This document shows positions 23,981 through 33,267 of a stretch of DNA of 64,000 bases, piece after piece. Source of the DNA: Marinobacterium marinum. Its GTDB lineage: Bacteria > Pseudomonadota > Gammaproteobacteria > Pseudomonadales > Balneatricaceae. The DNA is taken from positions 1-64,000 of the forward strand of contig NZ_JACEMT010000032.1 of assembly GCF_013868415.1 (NCBI RefSeq), given 5' to 3'. Under the pieces are notes generated by a model, which saw nothing but the letters and a program-made list of their open reading frames with translations, searched no databases and was not told where the DNA came from. Position numbers and translations under genes: made by a program. Positions within the stretch are counted from its first letter, which is position 1. Every line of letters starts with the position of its first letter.

Positions 23981-24403
23981 ATGAGCCTGATCAACATGGC
24001 GGCACAACTGTTTATCAGCAAACTGGGCAGCAACGGTAACCAGCTGGATCTGGGCAGTGTTGCCACAGCCCTGCAGAACCTGCTGCCAACTCAGAATGGC
24101 GAACTGGACCTGGGCGCCCTGATTGCGCAATTCACCAACGGCAACGAAGGCCTCGCCAATCTGGCTTCCTCCTGGCTGGGCGGAGGCGACAACGCCGCGC
24201 TCTCACCCTCGGCCCTGCTGGAGATACTCGGCAGCGACCGTATTGCAACCTTTGCCAATAGCCTGGGATTGGGCCAGGACACCGCCACCGGCGGTCTGGC
24301 TCAGATGCTGCCGGAACTGATCGATAACAACAGCGAAGGCGGCGACCTGCTGGGCAACGCTGTTGGCGGCCTGGCCAAGGGCCTGCTCGGCAAACTTTTC
24401 TAA
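23981..24403 (+). CDS. YidB-like (DUF937) protein
   Basis: 140 residues, low complexity and rich in Gly, Leu, Asn and Ala: MSLINMAAQLFISKLGSNG, then repeated GLANLASSWLGGGDN and GLGQDTATGGLAQMLPELID units. This fits the YidB/DUF937 family, whose helical repeats are soluble and of uncertain role. The ATG at 23981 has ACGAGGACACACA upstream, almost the same leader as the HD gene that follows. Start extension to 23948 is not supported. Confidence 0.8.
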   Translation: MSLINMAAQLFISKLGSNGNQLDLGSVATALQNLLPTQNGELDLGALIAQFTNGNEGLANLASSWLGGGDNAALSPSALLEILGSDRIATFANSLGLGQDTATGGLAQMLPELIDNNSEGGDLLGNAVGGLAKGLLGKLF

Positions 24404-24449
24404 CCGGCGGGATTCGAGCAACCGTCAACTCAACGGACGAGGACACACC

Positions 24450-25181
24450 ATGTCAGCCCAGGATGACGAACATTCATTTGAAAACCTAAGCGACCTGCTG
24501 GGGCCGGACGAAAACCTGACCTCGGCACGGCCCGACCTGTTCGAGACCGTTGCACCCACCTCCAGCTACGTCCCCACCAAAAAAGCGGGCCTCGGTTTTG
24601 ACAGCCGCGCGACTCAGCCTTCGGGCTCGCTGGTCCTGCTGGACACGGAACACGAAGGCCCCTGCCTGAGGCAAATCCGTGAATATGCACTGGACGCCCA
24701 CGCAGGGCAGCAACGACGCTACACCACCGAACCCTACTGGAAACACCTGTCCGAAGTGGCCGGGCTGGTCGCCACTTCAAGCTACGGCAGCCCCCGCGCG
24801 CTCGCCCTGGCCTGGCTGCACGACATCGTTGAAGACACCTCAGTCACCCTGCGTGATATCGAACGCCTCTTCGGCGCTCCCATCGCCGACGGCGTACGCT
24901 GCCTGACCGGCTCTGCCAACCCGACCATTGGCAGAGAAGAACGCAAACGGCGCGACCGCCAACGCCTGGCCGCCGGAGATGCCGAAGTGCATACCGTCAA
25001 ACTGGCCGATATCGCCTCCAACCTGGCCTCCATCGGCCGCTTCGATCCCGAATTTGCCCTGGGTGGCTACCTGGAAGAAAAACGCCTGGAAGTCGGCGTC
25101 CTCACTCAGGGTGACGCCAGCCTGAAAAAACTGGTGCGAACCCTGTGGGCAGACGCCCGACGCATGGCGGAAGAATCCTGA
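24450..25181 (+). CDS. HD-domain protein, SpoT/MESH1-like (p)ppGpp hydrolase
   Basis: 243 residues. An N-terminal stretch of about 70 residues of low complexity is followed by an HD fold matching alarmone hydrolases: His99 in YWKHLSEVA, His124-Asp125 with Glu128-Asp129 in WLHDIVEDT, and VKLADIASNL near residue 200. The HD...ED pair is the hydrolase signature of SpoT and small alarmone hydrolases. There is no synthetase or ACT domain. It probably removes the 3' pyrophosphate of (p)ppGpp; another nucleotide is possible. Leader ACGAGGACACACC. It ends 2 bases before the cassette array. Confidence 0.8.
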   Translation: MSAQDDEHSFENLSDLLGPDENLTSARPDLFETVAPTSSYVPTKKAGLGFDSRATQPSGSLVLLDTEHEGPCLRQIREYALDAHAGQQRRYTTEPYWKHLSEVAGLVATSSYGSPRALALAWLHDIVEDTSVTLRDIERLFGAPIADGVRCLTGSANPTIGREERKRRDRQRLAAGDAEVHTVKLADIASNLASIGRFDPEFALGGYLEEKRLEVGVLTQGDASLKKLVRTLWADARRMAEES

Positions 25182-25182
25182 C

Positions 25183-25284
25183 ATCCAACGCCATGAACCG
25201 GTATGACCTGCGGATCATGGTTGTCGGGGATTGAGGTATTAAAAATTTGAAGGTTGGATTTACGAACACAGTTATTTGTTAACT
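25183..25284 (-). other. Weak attC-like site at the left edge of the array
   Basis: On the minus strand it opens with AGTTAAC, overlapping the stop codon of the 185-residue gene, and closes with GTTGGAT, a perfect GTTRRRY core, 2 bases after the HD gene stop. Inside, CAACCATGA pairs with TCATGGCGTTG apart from one bulge. The 102-base length suits attC, but the central pairing is poor. Confidence 0.35.
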
Positions 25285-25836
25285 CCAATCTTCCCAACGC
25301 TTGCCTTCCGCATGCCAAGGCAAAGCAGGCTGGCTTCTGATTTTTTTGCTTCTACCATTTTGAATATGATGTGTTTCTATTGTGTCAAAGACTCTCTTTC
25401 CTTTACGGTTGAACCTCACCAAAAAAAGCACAATGGGCTCGGCGGAATCACCCCATTGGCTTTTAACGGCATTTAAATTATCGTCATAAAAATTGTTATC
25501 AGAATAGGTTACAAAAACTGAAAATTGGCATTTTTCTTTTGCTTCATATAACTGCCTAACTTCATTCACCTTTTCAATCTTTCTAGGTTCATACCACTCC
25601 CATTCTAAATTTGCAACTACGTTTTCAGCATTATCTTTCATAACAGCATCAGTTCTATTTCCATGCTCAAAATACATGAAATAACCAAGTAAATCCGAAG
25701 CAGTTCTAGCACAGAACCCTATATGGGTTGTCCATTCAGCTCTTGAGGCTATTTCTTTGTGCTCCTTTGTTAGGGGAAAGTCTCGATACCAAAGAACATT
25801 GAATAATGTTATGAAGTCCCTAGTTATGCGTTTCAA
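25279..25836 (-). CDS. Cassette protein of unknown function
   Basis: 185 residues, soluble, no signal peptide. I do not recognise the family. The central part reads GNRTDAVMKDNAENVVANLEWEWYEP near residues 59-84; a D...E-x-E/W spacing of this kind occurs in PD-(D/E)XK nucleases, but no clear third residue can be assigned. The start codon is TTG with GGA at a fair distance; expression may be weak. No attC separates it from the DUF4304 gene upstream, so the two may have travelled as one cassette. Confidence 0.7.
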   Translation of the reverse strand: MKRITRDFITLFNVLWYRDFPLTKEHKEIASRAEWTTHIGFCARTASDLLGYFMYFEHGNRTDAVMKDNAENVVANLEWEWYEPRKIEKVNEVRQLYEAKEKCQFSVFVTYSDNNFYDDNLNAVKSQWGDSAEPIVLFLVRFNRKGKRVFDTIETHHIQNGRSKKIRSQPALPWHAEGKRWEDWS

Positions 25837-25941
25837 TTTTTTTAATCCAAAAGAGTGGTCTTATAAAAAAAGCAGACACTTTGATTAAAAAGTAATTTGA
25901 GTGACACTTTTAGTGGTCGGTTACTTCTTATCTAAGTGCTT

Positions 25942-26523
25942 TTACCACGATAGCCCCGAATTTCTTGCCCATGATTTAAACATGGATTTAGCGGCAGGCC
26001 TATCTAATAAAATTTTATCATACCTTGCTTTGGCCTCTGACTCATTACCCGCAAGTAGTGCCGCAGAAATCGACTGTAAGGATGGTTGTTGTTTCAATTT
26101 ATCGGATATATTTTTAATACTCGAATAATTCTGAAGCCAAGGAAAACCATACCTGGACATGTTTTCTGAAATTTCGTTAGCCAGGTTTAATATATCTGTA
26201 TCATCTGATATATCCCACCAATAATCATTTCCATGCACTAATATTCCTAGACGCTCTCTTACAGTGGAATCATATTCTTTCGGTTTTAAGGGTATCTTTA
26301 AGCCAGATTTTTCAGAAATGACGTTACTTATTATGCCTAGATTTACAGAAAATTTTCCATCTACACCTAGATTACCTGAACTCGATTGTACATTTACTAT
26401 ATGCCAGCCATCTTCCACTTTTTTTAAGAAAGTACGGCCACTTTTCTTAAAACCATTTTCTTTCATGATTTTAGAGAGCCCTTCCTTGATTACCTTATCT
26501 ATCTTTTTTCCGATTTCGCTCAT
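25942..26523 (-). CDS. DUF4304-family cassette protein
   Basis: About 193 residues. The N-terminus has the DUF4304 layout: LSKIMKENGFKKSGRTFLKKVEDGWHIVNVQSSSGNLG, then FSVNLGI. The C-terminal part is helical (ISAALLAGNESEAKARYDKILLDRP). Members are small cytoplasmic proteins of unknown function, often found among mobile genes. The ATG at 26523 has GGAG five bases away; one codon upstream is another ATG. It is followed by about 105 AT-rich bases without an attC. Confidence 0.78.
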   Translation of the reverse strand: MSEIGKKIDKVIKEGLSKIMKENGFKKSGRTFLKKVEDGWHIVNVQSSSGNLGVDGKFSVNLGIISNVISEKSGLKIPLKPKEYDSTVRERLGILVHGNDYWWDISDDTDILNLANEISENMSRYGFPWLQNYSSIKNISDKLKQQPSLQSISAALLAGNESEAKARYDKILLDRPAAKSMFKSWARNSGLSW

Positions 26524-26563
26524 CATCTCTCCAAATAAATCAACACCCAAAGCAGGGAATATT

Positions 26564-26624
26564 TTTTAACGCAGCGATGCAAAATTTTCCCGCCGCCTTG
26601 GTTTGTTATAGTCTCTTGTTATAG
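26564..26624 (-). other. Possible short attC site with duplicated box
   Basis: The minus strand reads CTATAACAAGAGACTATAACAAACC: two TATAACAA boxes in tandem, then a GGCGGCG...CGCTGCG region and GTTAAAA (26564-26570) as the closing core. The outer boxes fit attC; the stem is short and imperfect. Confidence 0.5.
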
Positions 26625-26633
26625 CTGTCGCGG

Positions 26634-26921
26634 TTAGAACCGGGAGTCGTTTTCACAAGGGATGCCGTCACGATCACCATCCATCTTTGTATTTGGGCAA
26701 TTTCTTATAAAAAACTCAGCCTCGGCCCTGGATGTCATTTGACTGCAATGCTGGCGTCCGTCACACCTGAAGCTAGTTTGGGAAGTATGAACAGGTGCCT
26801 CCCTACGAGTTTCGGCTATTCCAGAAGAGCGCGGCATAGGGTTAGGCGTAGAATCTACATTTTTTGTGTAATAGTTCCACGCACCAAAGCCGATAAGTGC
26901 TACGAGAATAATTTTTTTCAA
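26634..26921 (-). CDS. Membrane-anchored Excalibur-domain protein
   Basis: About 95 residues. One N-terminal hydrophobic helix (KKIILVALIGFGAWNYY) anchors or exports it. The C-terminus carries the extracellular calcium-binding Excalibur motif: FRCDGRQHCSQMTS...FIRNCPNTKMDGDRDGIPCE with the DGDRDG loop and four cysteines. I take the TTG at 26921 because AGGA is seven bases away and homologous proteins I know begin MKKIIL; a TTG at 26927 is possible. It lies in its own cassette. Confidence 0.75.
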   Translation of the reverse strand: MKKIILVALIGFGAWNYYTKNVDSTPNPMPRSSGIAETRREAPVHTSQTSFRCDGRQHCSQMTSRAEAEFFIRNCPNTKMDGDRDGIPCENDSRF

Positions 26922-26945
26922 ACTCAAGATCCTAAGTTGATAGAG

Positions 26946-27003
26946 CTATAACGCTAAACGAAGCGGCGGCTGAAAGCCGTCCGCCTTCCGTGACTTGTTA
27001 CAT
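26946..27003 (-). other. attC site, about 58 bases
   Basis: Minus strand: ATGTAAC (27003-26997), overlapping the TAA stop of the 202-residue gene, then AAGGCGGACGGC-TTTCA-GCCGCCGCTT arms with a one-base bulge, closing with GTTATAG (26952-26946). Confidence 0.75.
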
Positions 27004-27606
27004 GAGATATCCCTCAATTGCTTCCTGCACCCTCTTTGCGGAAACAACCGAAAACGTCTGGGATAATAGAAATAACCCAAAAACTATTAAAAACAGAGAA
27101 ACTCCAATCACAACAAAAATTCCAGCTATCGATTGTGACTGAACGGCATTTGTCATTGCCAAAAACGGGAAACCTATTAACAACAATAAAACACCAGCTA
27201 TCATATTGTACCAATAGCCAATCCTATCGAAATTCGATATTTTTACCTCTAATTTACCATCATTTATCTCTAAATGGCTTCTAGCTCTTATAAAATGAGA
27301 AATCGAAAGCTCTCTGTTCAGTCTTGCGTACCAATCAATGCATGCATCCCTAATAACCTTCTCCATCTTCACTTTATGGACCAGTCTAAAATATTCATTT
27401 TCTATTTCATCTTCGAAATGAACTTTCAGATTTCCATTTATCGAACCTATGGACACAGCCTCCTTCAATAGCTCAATCCTTCTCTTTTTATAGGTATCTG
27501 TGAAGGACAAGATATTTTTCAGGTTAAACAAAATACCCAAAACAATCGCGATGGAAAACGCGGCGTATTCTCCCTGAGAAATGAACTCAAACGCCTTGTC
27601 AAACAT
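26998..27606 (-). CDS. Cassette-encoded membrane protein of unknown function
   Basis: 202 residues. One hydrophobic segment lies near residues 15-30 (AAFSIAIVLGILFNL), followed by a charged cytoplasmic-looking stretch (about 36-125) and two adjacent C-terminal helices (MIAGVLLLLIGFPFLAM and IAGIFVVIGVSLFLIVFGLFLL). No motif points to a function. AAAAGGAAGC precedes the ATG. The TAA stop forms part of the attC box, as expected for a cassette gene. Confidence 0.78.
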   Translation of the reverse strand: MFDKAFEFISQGEYAAFSIAIVLGILFNLKNILSFTDTYKKRRIELLKEAVSIGSINGNLKVHFEDEIENEYFRLVHKVKMEKVIRDACIDWYARLNRELSISHFIRARSHLEINDGKLEVKISNFDRIGYWYNMIAGVLLLLIGFPFLAMTNAVQSQSIAGIFVVIGVSLFLIVFGLFLLSQTFSVVSAKRVQEAIEGYLM

Positions 27607-27623
27607 TCTTAAGCTTCCTTTTC

Positions 27624-27692
27624 ATGTAATGCCCGTAACACTTGACCGAAAAAGCGTAGCTTTTTTGGGTCAAGTGCTTACGTTTGTTAGCA
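27624..27692 (-). other. attC site with altered core, about 69 bases
   Basis: Minus strand: TGCTAACAAACG, then long arms (GTAAGCACTTGACC...GGTCAAGTG-TTACG) around a TACGC loop, closing with GGGCATTACAT. By comparison with GGGCGTTACAC at 29354-29360, the invariant GTT of the core has become ATT. Confidence 0.75.
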
Positions 27693-27706
27693 GTTTTCTT
27701 TAAACA

Positions 27707-28558
27707 CTACTGTTCAGCCTTTTTCTCTTGCTGTTTCTTCCAGTCTTCATATCGTTGCTGACGAAGACGGCTTTCTTCTTCACGGTCAGCTGAAGAGTAC
27801 GTATTCACCTGGAGCCTATTAGGTGATGAGTTAACTACCTTACCAAACTGCTCTGTTAGCTTATTCAAGTCATCAGCTATTTTATGTAAAGGGTCGCCTC
27901 CACCGACTTCAGAAACTCCCTTATACTCTTTGAAATCCACAACTAATTCATTTGAATACTGCTCACCGTTCACATCTGAAAATGTTATTTCGATTTTAAA
28001 AAAAGGGGAAAAAACATCGTCACCATCTAGCTTTCCTTTTAAATCAAAAAAGCTAAATAGGAAGCTCTCAACTTTTTGGCCTATACCAAGGGAATGTATT
28101 CCTTCTGAAAAAATATGAAGTTTCAAGAATTCATCAACTATAGGATTATCTGTATCAAAAATTTCGGACCCGCTACTATCTGAAAACTTAAATTTCAAAT
28201 TTCGCGCTATTCCTTTACCAAGATTATTAATTTCCACCTCGATTAAATTAAAGGAAACTGGGCTATTTTTTAATCGAAGTGAAACGTTAGGGCGTATATT
28301 CTCTCGTTTGAGCTCGTTTACCTGTTCAATCTGTGCTTCACGCAGATACCAAGTTTCTTTTGCCAATATAAAAGTCAATATGGCAATTGCTACAGTTGCT
28401 AATGCACTAGTCCAAGAAGAAAGTGAATCAGCTGTAAGTAAGTTTGAGAGCTGTATTTGACTTCCTGTAACTAGGCCAAGAATAAATATTATAGGCGCAG
28501 CAACAACGCCGGAAACGATAAGTAAAGGGATCAAACTTCTTTCATTTTCACGTTTCAC
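27707..28558 (-). CDS. Cassette-encoded two-helix membrane protein
   Basis: 283 residues. Two N-terminal membrane helices (about 11-32 and 47-65) are followed by a short helical linker and a large soluble domain with beta-sandwich character (about 85-225: RPNVSLRLKNSPVSFNLIEVEINNLGKGIARNLKFKF, VNGEQYSNELVVDF). A charged C-terminal tail ends in ESRLRQQRYEDWKKQQEKK. This layout resembles uncharacterised membrane proteins with an Ig-like domain found among mobile genes. GTG start with GGAG upstream. Function unknown. Confidence 0.78.
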   Translation of the reverse strand: MKRENERSLIPLLIVSGVVAAPIIFILGLVTGSQIQLSNLLTADSLSSWTSALATVAIAILTFILAKETWYLREAQIEQVNELKRENIRPNVSLRLKNSPVSFNLIEVEINNLGKGIARNLKFKFSDSSGSEIFDTDNPIVDEFLKLHIFSEGIHSLGIGQKVESFLFSFFDLKGKLDGDDVFSPFFKIEITFSDVNGEQYSNELVVDFKEYKGVSEVGGGDPLHKIADDLNKLTEQFGKVVNSSPNRLQVNTYSSADREEESRLRQQRYEDWKKQQEKKAEQ

Positions 28559-28573
28559 TATTTTCTCCTAGCC

Positions 28574-28642
28574 TGCTAACGCCGTGCTCTGGGGCAAACC
28601 GGAGCGAAGCGTAGGTTTGTCCCTAGCAGCACTTTGTTACAC
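28574..28642 (-). other. attC site, about 69 bases
   Basis: Minus strand: GTGTAACAAAGTGCT at the start, overlapping the TAA stop of the upstream gene (28637-28639). Arms GGGACAAACC...GGTTTGCCCC and GTGCTGC...GAGCAC enclose a TACGCTTCGCTCC loop, and the site closes with GGCGTTAGCA. It is the best conserved site of the array. Confidence 0.85.
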
Positions 28643-29338
28643 ATTTTCATCATCGTTACCACCTGGTATATAAACTTTATCTTCTTCAATAGGATTAAGC
28701 GACAAGCAAAGCATGAATAAATTAAAAATAACAAATACAGCCATGCCGGCGTTGATGAACCGGTTAACCCAAAAGCCAAAGTCTTTATCTAGAAGAAGCT
28801 CCGCTTGTTGTGTAATCGTGATTAGGTTTTCGGCACCCAGAACAAGATAATTTAAGGCGAAAAGAGAGACTAGCGCAAAGCCCACATTCAGATTTACATG
28901 CTTGATCTTGATTTCCTCTTCATGCTTCTCAACTATATCTAGAACAACCTTGTCTTTTTTCTTCAACGCTCTATCTTTTATTAGTGACGGATAATGCCAG
29001 CCATCGCTAAGATTATTTTCCTTTGCCGAACTCCAAAACCATTTAAAATACACCCATGCAACACCTAATCTACTAATCTGGCGTAATGCTGGAAAAAATA
29101 GCGCCATTCCAAAGAAGAAAACACCAAGAAAAATAATTGCATTCGCTGCATTCACCTCCGGCTCATTTAGATTCTGAAACGAAGACAATATGTTCTTTCC
29201 AAAGAATATTACTAAACAAGAATCAAGCAGCAATATGAAGGAAGTAAAAAGCATGAAGTGCCGAAACTCCACTGCTTTTTCAACAAAACTGGTACTTGAA
29301 GCTACTATTTTTGAAATTGACGGTCCCGAATCAGACAC
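28637..29338 (-). CDS. Cassette-encoded multi-pass membrane protein
   Basis: 233 residues, four predicted membrane helices: near 26-48, 63-85, 150-170 and 188-210. Between the second and third lies a cytoplasmic stretch of about 60 charged residues (FKWFWSSAKENNLSDGWHYPSLIKDRALKKKDK). No enzyme motif is visible. A strong AAGGAGG precedes the GTG start. Its TAA stop lies within the next attC box, a firm sign of cassette origin. Function unknown. Confidence 0.8.
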   Translation of the reverse strand: MSDSGPSISKIVASSTSFVEKAVEFRHFMLFTSFILLLDSCLVIFFGKNILSSFQNLNEPEVNAANAIIFLGVFFFGMALFFPALRQISRLGVAWVYFKWFWSSAKENNLSDGWHYPSLIKDRALKKKDKVVLDIVEKHEEEIKIKHVNLNVGFALVSLFALNYLVLGAENLITITQQAELLLDKDFGFWVNRFINAGMAVFVIFNLFMLCLSLNPIEEDKVYIPGGNDDENV

Positions 29339-29353
29339 GCTTCCTCCTTAGGT

Positions 29354-29454
29354 GTGTAACGCCCGCCTAACAGGCGTAAAATGCTTGGCTAAAATTAGGA
29401 ACGAAGTGACGCAAGCCAAGCTTTTTACGTCCTTTGTTGAGGCGTTTGTTATAC
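29354..29454 (-). other. attC site, about 101 bases
   Basis: Minus strand: GTATAACAAACGCCTCAAC at the start, GCGTTACAC at the end. The inner arms CGTAAAAAGCTTGGC and GCCAAGC-ATTTTACG pair over 15 bases with one bulge, and the outer arms also pair imperfectly. It begins immediately after the TAG stop of the 264-residue gene. Confidence 0.85.
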
Positions 29455-30249
29455 CTATTTATTTGCTAATTGTCCCTTTTTATAGCCTAAGTATTTTCGC
29501 CCTAGTTCATCAAGGATATATCCTGGAACATCTTTACCGTCATCATCTTCAACCATTGCGTTATACTTAATGAAATTTTGTGATTCTAATTGTTTTAAAG
29601 CAATTGATACTTTATCCAAGTCCAAGTTGAGTGTAGAGGCAATATCTGCTGCTATTTGAACATGCCCATCTTTTAATCCAGTATGTGCATTTAATATTTG
29701 ATATTCAGTGTCGGTTAATTGAATTTTACTAGGATCTGCTTTCGGGTCGGGGGGAGTTAACTCAGAAAGTTTATGATACAACTCAGCGTTTTCTTCAGTG
29801 AGTGTCGTAATTATATCTTTGAGTTGATTTGTTGCATCTTGATTCTCAGATACTATTTTTCTGATTTGTTTGTCTTTGTCTAAAATCTCTTGTCTTAAAA
29901 GCAAAGACTGTTCGACCGAAAGTTGCTGTTTCATAGATAAAGATTGTTTCAAAGCTCTTTGAGCATGTTGTACTTTTTCCCATACCCAAAACGGTATATA
30001 TGCAACAAGAGGATACAATAGCGCAATTAATGAACCTGCAATAACAGGGTAAATGATGTTGGTGTTTAGGTTACTATATTGCTCTGTGAATACTTGAAGT
30101 TTAGTTTCTATTTTTCCATCAGATAAAACCATATAAAGAATTGATTGCCAATTAAAATAAAACCACGAAATTGCAATACTTCCAATCAAGGGACTTGATA
30201 TGCGTTCGTATAAATTTGCTTTAATTGATGTGCTTAATTCCTTAAACAT
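29455..30249 (-). CDS. Membrane protein with coiled coil and winged-helix-like tail
   Basis: 264 residues in three parts. Residues 1-95 contain two membrane helices around ISSPLIGSIAISWFYFNWQSIL and IIYPVIAGSLIALLYPLVAYI. Residues 100-165 form a coiled coil (heptads in EILDKDKQIRKIVSENQDATNQLKDIITTLTEENAEL). Residues 175-260 resemble a winged helix-turn-helix (IQLTDTEYQILNAHTGLKDG...ASTLNLDLDKVSIALKQLESQNFI). A membrane sensor or signal protein with a nucleic-acid-binding-like end is possible but unproven. ATG with GGAG upstream. It would be the first cassette in transcription order. Confidence 0.78.
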   Translation of the reverse strand: MFKELSTSIKANLYERISSPLIGSIAISWFYFNWQSILYMVLSDGKIETKLQVFTEQYSNLNTNIIYPVIAGSLIALLYPLVAYIPFWVWEKVQHAQRALKQSLSMKQQLSVEQSLLLRQEILDKDKQIRKIVSENQDATNQLKDIITTLTEENAELYHKLSELTPPDPKADPSKIQLTDTEYQILNAHTGLKDGHVQIAADIASTLNLDLDKVSIALKQLESQNFIKYNAMVEDDDGKDVPGYILDELGRKYLGYKKGQLANK

Positions 30250-30263
30250 AACTCTCCAAATAG

Positions 30264-30327
30264 GTATAACAGCCTATTTATAAGGTCTACTACCTTATAA
30301 TAATTATTAGCGGGTATACCTTATAAT
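30264..30327. repeat. Palindrome and direct repeat at the right edge of the array
   Basis: TTATAAGGT-N5-ACCTTATAA (30278-30300) is a perfect 9-bp inverted repeat, and ACCTTATAAT recurs 26 bases on (30318-30327). Flanked by GTATAAC (30264-30270) and CGCTAAT on the minus strand, it may be a degenerate attC about 50 bases long, or an operator/promoter region for the first cassette gene. Confidence 0.45.
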
Positions 30328-30550
30328 GACCCAATATAAATTTAACCAATTGATAATTAACAGTTTTATTTCCATGACACCTGTAAAAAGGTAAATCTAC
30401 GTATCGAAAGTGTGCTCAGCGGGTACAACGTACGCCAACCACCTGTGTCATCAATAACCAACACTATAATCAGATCATGCTCGACTGACCAGTCAACCTA
30501 AGTACAAACCCCAATATTCACATCCAGCCCGATACGGCCGAGTTCCAAAC
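30328..30550. other. AT-rich gap between cassette array and clpB terminator
   Basis: No gene, integrase remnant or tRNA-like sequence is visible. Base composition returns gradually from AT-rich to typical from about 30.4 kb. Confidence 0.5.
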
Positions 30551-30584
30551 AAAAAAGCCCACCGATCTCTCGGCAGGCTTTTTC
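30551..30584 (-). terminator. Intrinsic terminator of clpB
   Basis: On the minus strand AAGCCTGCCGA-GAGA-TCGGTGGGCTT followed by TTTT, 30 bases after the clpB stop. Confidence 0.8.
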
Positions 30585-30614
30585 TCTAAGCGAATCACTG
30601 TTCAGGCGGGATGG

Positions 30615-33191
<2,577 letters not shown>

Positions 33192-33267
33192 GAGGTCTCC
33201 TGTGGATCTCTCTGTGCCAAGGTCCGACACACGCAGTCAGACATGTAGGCGTTTCTGTTACTACTAT

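Follow-up and report, generated by a model that had tools for sequence, protein, structure and literature searches.

The window considered here is a stretch of 64,000 nucleotides (contig C19, bases 1-64000) from the 3.28-Mb draft genome of Marinobacterium marinum (55 contigs; genome code G000), and its subject is an integron cassette array located between an HD-domain gene (24363-25181, plus strand) and clpB (30615-33230, minus strand), a conserved neighbour. Seven open reading frames (ORFs) of 97-283 amino acids are found between these genes, all on the minus strand. The initial annotation described them as an orphan cluster of attC sites lacking an integrase (CALIN). In the available part of PMC9024848, a CALIN is defined by at least two attC recombination sites with no integrase nearby, and the array, which holds four attC sites, agrees with this definition. 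However, it is not an orphan, since it is headed by a conserved attI, and further attI-headed arrays and an apparently intact integrase (IntI) gene are present elsewhere in the genome, which sets it apart from the CALINs so defined.

The attC sites were evaluated with a covariance model, R1, built from 25 attC sites of seven relatives of the same genus (G001-G007) and none from the source genome. Of 26 candidates, only the longest (L094) was kept out of training, and the 11 pairs of the model structure were set by hand, RNAalifold having yielded 8 pairs on the attC alignment. The candidates had been picked with two home-made attC scanners, neither of them discriminating; the second gave 13-23 hits per shuffled 64-kb strand. 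When both strands of the window were searched at E<=10, R1 returned exactly four matches, all on the minus strand: attC 1 at 29354-29454 (32.7 bits, E 3e-6), attC 2 at 28574-28642 (34.1 bits, E 1.5e-6), attC 3 at 27624-27692 (38.6 bits, E 1e-7) and attC 4 at 26946-27003 (27.2 bits, E 1e-4). These coordinates are exactly those of the four gaps in which attC sites had been proposed, and the GTTA-type core ascribed to them fails at attC 3, which reads ATTA. Additionally, attC 1 shares 93.75% identity over 96 bases with an attC of G031, a genome of another genus. No attC was supported by R1 after genes 5, 6 or 7 at this threshold, and a possible degenerate attC after gene 5 (26541-26608) likewise has no R1 support. 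The seven same-strand ORFs of the initial annotation stand, and the array backed by attC is restricted to four cassettes in a single orientation.

The earlier description contained no attI and has to be amended in this respect, since an attI with the core GTTATAC was found at the array head (30267-30328, minus strand), with crossover expected at 30270/30269. It was recognized by its match to the attI beside the intI of contig C33 in the same genome: the block heading the window array is also present in the C33 stretch that separates intI from the first cassette, and a core of 21-23 bases is exact at both places, where shuffles of the window lead to an expectation of 0. Four copies of the 21-base core were found in the source genome with at most one mismatch, and none with the reversed control. 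When 28 Marinobacterium sites were aligned toward the cassettes, the shared module ended at CTG/TTA, beyond which the sequences differ except for shared insertion sequences (IS); this module end is degenerate in G002_C1b and G007_C26.

In an alignment of the window attI with 45 other sites, a hairpin (ATAAGGT..ACCTTAT; 30280-30298, minus strand) is supported by covarying pairs. Its eight pairs form in 95.7% of the cells (44 distinct sequences), and both sides are changed in 15 cells, compared with a mean of 3.1 in shuffles, of which 0/500 reached as high a value; pairing falls to 28-46% when the alignment positions are slid. The window copy itself contributes a double-sided change, being the sole one with an A-U pair at columns 34/49. 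The hairpin could act either as RNA or as a DNA dyad. A palindromic GGTATACC block (30313-30320) is likewise conserved in the 46-site alignment and may be a protein-binding dyad, as if a dimeric protein could bind there. In G045, the neighbours of GGTATACC change jointly (AAGGGGTATACCCCC), as judged by eye. Further upstream, a sequence scan identified a candidate promoter directed toward the cassettes, TGGTCA-17-TATAGT (30463-30491, minus strand), and TATAGT with the 17-base spacing recurs in 8/8 related modules inspected by eye. Several modules without intI share an upstream segment from about -320 to -130 (about 30450-30640 in the window), which contains TATAGT and possible RNA hairpins.

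The C33 gene encodes a complete IntI (TIGR02249, 424 bits), which aligns over 318 residues to the solved IntI4 of Vibrio cholerae and, as far as its sequence can tell, keeps a full-length open frame and the conserved motifs. It is the only intI adjacent to an attI in the source genome, the window attI having no such neighbour, and no intI remnant was seen upstream of the latter (best E 4.9). Thus, the absence of an integrase claimed for this array is true within the window and not for the genome. A shortened IntI is also present on contig C29, where a 155-amino-acid frame (L018 1546-2013) fuses the IntI N-terminus to the C-terminus with most of the middle deleted, and another transposase gene adjoins it. 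Among the relatives, the IntI of G004 (L099, contig C13) carries TTEISTHV where the other five IntI compared carry TTEIYTHV; this protein is probably inactive, judging from the serine in place of the motif tyrosine.

A 21-mer search yielded 28 copies of the attI core in 7/8 genomes of the genus; G003, which appeared in that search to be devoid of the system, was later found to contain an intI remnant and a single match to attI, and 21-mer matches in G008 and G021 were discarded because the hairpin is absent (G021 has a separate weak match, 5.9e-4, to the model described next). A covariance model of the 62-bp attI module, R2, was trained on 46 sites including that of the window, whose score of 82.5 bits is therefore high by construction; G007_C26, in which the crossover motif is absent, and the degenerate G002_C1b were excluded, and the E-values of R2 are rough. 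At E<=0.01, R2 identified 147 sites, 46 of them the training set, in 51/116 genomes of the family and 10/16 genera. Two or more sites were present in 33 of the 51 genomes, with a maximum of seven, and five were matched in the source genome, the fifth (on contig C36) being weak. At E<=1e-5, 99 sites remained in 37 genomes, 24 of which carried two or more. Counting IntI matches at E<=1e-35 only, 17/147 sites have one within 1 kb, every one divergent from the attI, and the intervening gap is 152-187 bp for 16 of them and 312 bp for one beside a truncated match. Several attI sites also occur in single-contig genomes of the family (three in G005, two each in G027 and G031), and the pattern extends beyond it, since 29/390 genomes sampled across the order match R2 at E<=1e-5. 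Single-contig genomes of other families contain four (G339), three (G290 and G348) and two (G395) attI sites. An intact IntI stands at one of the four in G339 (gap 175) and at one of the two in G395 (gap 174); G348 retains IntI only as a 92-amino-acid piece elsewhere, and no IntI match was obtained in G290 at E<=1e-28.

These attI sites are placed as heads of attC arrays. Around 47 sites outside the window, R1 located 92 same-strand attC downstream of attI versus 2 elsewhere. The training set, whose members had been picked downstream of attI, may account for as many as 25 of the 92, so the Marinobacterium counts are biased; nevertheless, 20 sites of other genera, which contributed no training attC, gave 48 downstream versus 2 elsewhere, and 12 sites from two other families gave 30 versus 0, as counted by eye. 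Both off-pattern attC of the 47-site tally lie upstream of G027_2306, where two same-strand attC precede the attI (L166 4758-5304), resembling two tandem arrays. With at least 2 kb of downstream sequence available, attC were present at 27/30 attI sites without adjacent intI and at 6/7 intI-adjacent sites, the exception being C33 of the source genome, in which an insertion sequence lies in the array.

When the Marinobacterium sites were grouped by their upstream genes, several loci proved to be shared: locus A, marked by intI or its remnant, in six genomes; locus B, marked by clpB and including the window, in five; and loci C, D and E in three, four and two, respectively. A further locus is common to G002_C5 and G007_C22 (81% over 3 kb), the remaining sites being single or unclear. 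At locus B, the ClpB proteins are 95-96% identical and their DNA 87-89%, and the 3' end of clpB adjoins attI in G002, G004, G005 and G006. Mean identity at this locus reaches 0.88 in the attI module, compared with 0.56-0.64 in the flanks and 0.33 at the start of the first cassette, and the five species have no cassette gene in common (blastp, 1e-8; G002 compared over 1.1 kb). The comparison of relatives for cassette gain and loss proposed at the outset was thus borne out, different genes occupying the clpB site in each. Sequences apparently shared across loci were also found. The first cassette of G005 at locus B, which lacks intI, has a counterpart cassette on contig C15 of the source genome (97.5% identity over 757 bp), located after an apparent IS end, while clpB of the two species is 89.3% identical. 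Similarly, a 180-amino-acid cassette gene is common to the intI locus of G002 and the intI-less locus D of G007, with 95.7% DNA identity. In G040 and G041, an intI-less attI has both flanks about 97% identical and mostly different content between them; the IntI match of G040 carries three stops, that of G041 none. A further cassette seemed common to G040_C18 and the G041 array beside intI but was not retained, since its ORFs look by eye like an IS3-type transposase. Second, partial attI copies, perhaps products of unusual attI recombination, were noted inside an array or at its far end in G002 (C1:186398-186439, locus A) and G040 (C18:211449-211499).

Taken as a whole, the comparison shows predicted attC and attI sites and, at another place in the genome, an IntI gene with every appearance of being intact; it also shows that genomes carry several arrays headed by attI, many of them at orthologous loci, and that the cassettes at the clpB locus differ in each of five species. 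On this comparative basis the multi-attI architecture is established, and the service of the satellite arrays in trans by a single IntI is its best reading. Accordingly worded, the window array is probably a satellite of a chromosomal integron with one integrase and many attI sites, loaded in trans now or in recent times. Such a satellite would have an attI and a hairpin leader of its own, probably also a promoter, and four or more minus-strand cassettes, with no intI. The C33 IntI would recognise the window attI and attC in trans, presumably to this day, inserting cassettes between 30270 and 30269 and also excising them; the first cassette genes would be expressed by transcription that starts upstream of attI. 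The satellites may be copies of the platform that afterwards lost intI, a course consistent with the intI remnants beside one attI in genomes that lack a clear IntI and with G038, which has two platforms, one with an intact intI and one with a three-stop intI. Several intI-less sites share about 300-350 bp upstream, where the intI locus carries intI, so that copying of an already intI-less module is also possible; where intI has been lost, the arrays may be relics. A broader proposal, to which roughly even chances are given, is that of a distributed integron in which one integrase serves as many as seven arrays, each headed by attI, provided with a promoter and a conserved hairpin leader and placed at its own fixed chromosomal address, many marine gammaproteobacterial CALINs being live satellites rather than debris.

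Several observations weigh against an array loaded in trans. The window attI has diverged from that of C33, and promoter-like sites are no commoner in the window than in shuffles. The genes of the window array have no match in the other arrays compared, and thus direct exchange with it was not seen, only an attC type being held in common. At locus B, G005 and G006 share one attC type (89.7%), and in the G040/G041 pair 309 bp of the stretch from attI to the far flank are common to both. No attC was found at G002_C1b (whose core is degenerate), G006_C4 and G086_C15, nor, by R1, at the fifth attI match of the source genome. Furthermore, IS elements occupy several attI or attC sites, and no IntI match at E<=1e-35 exists in 22 of the 51 attI-bearing genomes, which indicates that many arrays may be relics. 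This last point leads to the principal alternative, in which the clpB locus once carried a complete integron and the array became an inert relic after intI was lost, in line with the origin by degradation proposed for integrase-less arrays in the accessible text of PMC9024848. When weaker intI remnants were sought in 15 further genomes and upstream of 48 sites, broken intI pieces were located beside one attI in 7/15 of these genomes (G003, G028, G030, G031, G033, G053 and G103; positions matched to attI by eye), as well as beside G027_3706 and G031_5175, which adds at least eight sites to the 17 with a clear IntI; together with the IS insertions in arrays, such pieces agree with decay. However, a relic would be at odds with the wholly different cassettes next to a conserved attI in five species, with the near identity of a cassette at an intI-less site to that of another species, and with the presence in the source genome of an intact IntI and of no visible intI remnant at the window locus, and for these reasons degradation is considered rather unlikely for the window array.

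The remaining explanations carry far less weight. The module could be a promoter and leader element that merely precedes cassettes and is not a working recombination site; the covarying hairpin, the palindromic GGTATACC and the recurrent promoter-like sequence upstream would all suit such an element, as would the retention of the module in genomes without a clear IntI. This is nevertheless improbable, because conservation stops where the cassettes start, all 17 copies near a clear intI diverge from it, 16 of them at gaps of 152-187 bp, and attC lie nearly always downstream on the same strand. Insertion of the cassettes with no attI involved, at secondary sites of the chromosome (attG), a process mentioned as reported in the consulted part of PMC12444791, is more improbable still, given that a conserved attI module heads the window array and that arrays occupy orthologous places in several species. 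Finally, a single integron split by draft assembly could be imagined from the 55 contigs and from the several arrays that terminate at repeated IS copies, and yet this is scarcely credible, since the single-contig genomes G005, G027, G031, G339, G290, G348 and G395 repeat the pattern and the window array runs without a break into clpB at one end and into the HD gene at the other.

Compared with known systems, the arrangement looks like a variant of the integron not previously described, no description of dispersed attI sites having been found in the open-licence literature searched, as judged mostly by titles and abstracts. Its novelty would reside in the dispersal of the attI sites, and not in the seven genes, whose seemingly undescribed contents had been emphasized. 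In the portion of PMC9024848 available, integrons are typically presented with one attI close to the integrase, and IntegronFinder is stated not to detect attI outside class 1, so that attI heads such as that of the window would be missed. Likewise, the available text of PMC12444791 reports CALINs at seven loci apart from intI in Xanthomonas and states that a functional IntI can mobilize CALINs in trans; those arrays resemble the present ones in occupying several fixed chromosomal places away from the intI locus, but the arrays described here start with attI, and none is reported in that text at the Xanthomonas loci. The Vibrio sedentary chromosomal integron also combines a chromosomal IntI, to whose IntI4 version in V. 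cholerae the present protein is related, with attI and attC arrays, and in V. cholerae transcription starts upstream of attI (PMC3948777, in the part seen). However, it has one attI beside intI, whereas up to seven attI loci and one, rarely two, intI are found here. Delta-attI type cassettes of mobile integrons, as outlined in the accessible part of PMC12901181, similarly carry attI-derived sequence off its normal position, recalling the partial attI in G002 locus A and G040_C18; unlike them, the sites described here are array heads at fixed loci and keep the sequence upstream of the crossover. If many attI sites are indeed served by one integrase, the capture, expression and rearrangement of cassettes would be spread over the chromosome, and CALIN counts would need re-reading. 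The 147 candidate attI sites, 46 of them aligned, offer natural variation and a conserved hairpin with which attI recognition outside class 1 becomes testable, and they raise the question of whether IntI chooses among attI sites and why several are kept.

Regarding the contents of the array, Pfam, PHROG and other family searches assigned a clear function to none of the seven window genes, and an Rfam scan of the 64 kb at gathering thresholds gave no match. The cassette 1 gene (29455-30249, minus strand, as are all the following) encodes 264 amino acids with a two-helix membrane part and a C-terminal winged-helix-like part; the protein matches phrog_4780 (E 3e-18), a phage family without assigned function, and gives weak CasR/CARF matches (E 5e-5 to 2e-4). 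Cassette 2 (28637-29338, 233 amino acids) is an ORF without family match, and cassette 3 (27707-28558, 283 amino acids) resembles phrog_11802 (E 7e-16), also without assigned function. Cassette 4 (26998-27606, 202 amino acids) encodes a membrane protein with a weak HdeD-type match (E 6e-7), far under its cut-off. Beyond the last supported attC, gene 5 (26634-26927, 97 amino acids) contains an Excalibur domain (44.9 bits), gene 6 (25942-26550, 202 amino acids) a DUF4304 (84.3 bits), and gene 7 (25279-25836, 185 amino acids) has no Pfam match.

Mobile elements were frequently encountered among the arrays. IS110-type elements can target attC, and an element with an IS110-type transposase, identified by eye, is present in many arrays (L017 85-1035, L023 7277-8227 and at least 12 others); contigs C27 and C33 both terminate in identical copies. 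Directly after attI, at four sites of G004 and one of G006 (L099, L100, L102, L103, L109), stands another element, which touches the crossover; its transposase looks IS91-like by eye, and the element may have attI as its target or promote the copying of attI modules. On the other side of the window array, a contig scan of genomes placed the top named match for the HD gene in Marinobacterium weihaiense (66% identity), where its neighbours differ and it sits after a tRNA/rRNA methyltransferase-like gene (L049 9108-10762), and thus the HD side is no conserved array border. In the source genome, a similar methyltransferase gene is found on C29 and the HD gene lies at the array end on C19, indicating that the region around the HD gene has been rearranged.

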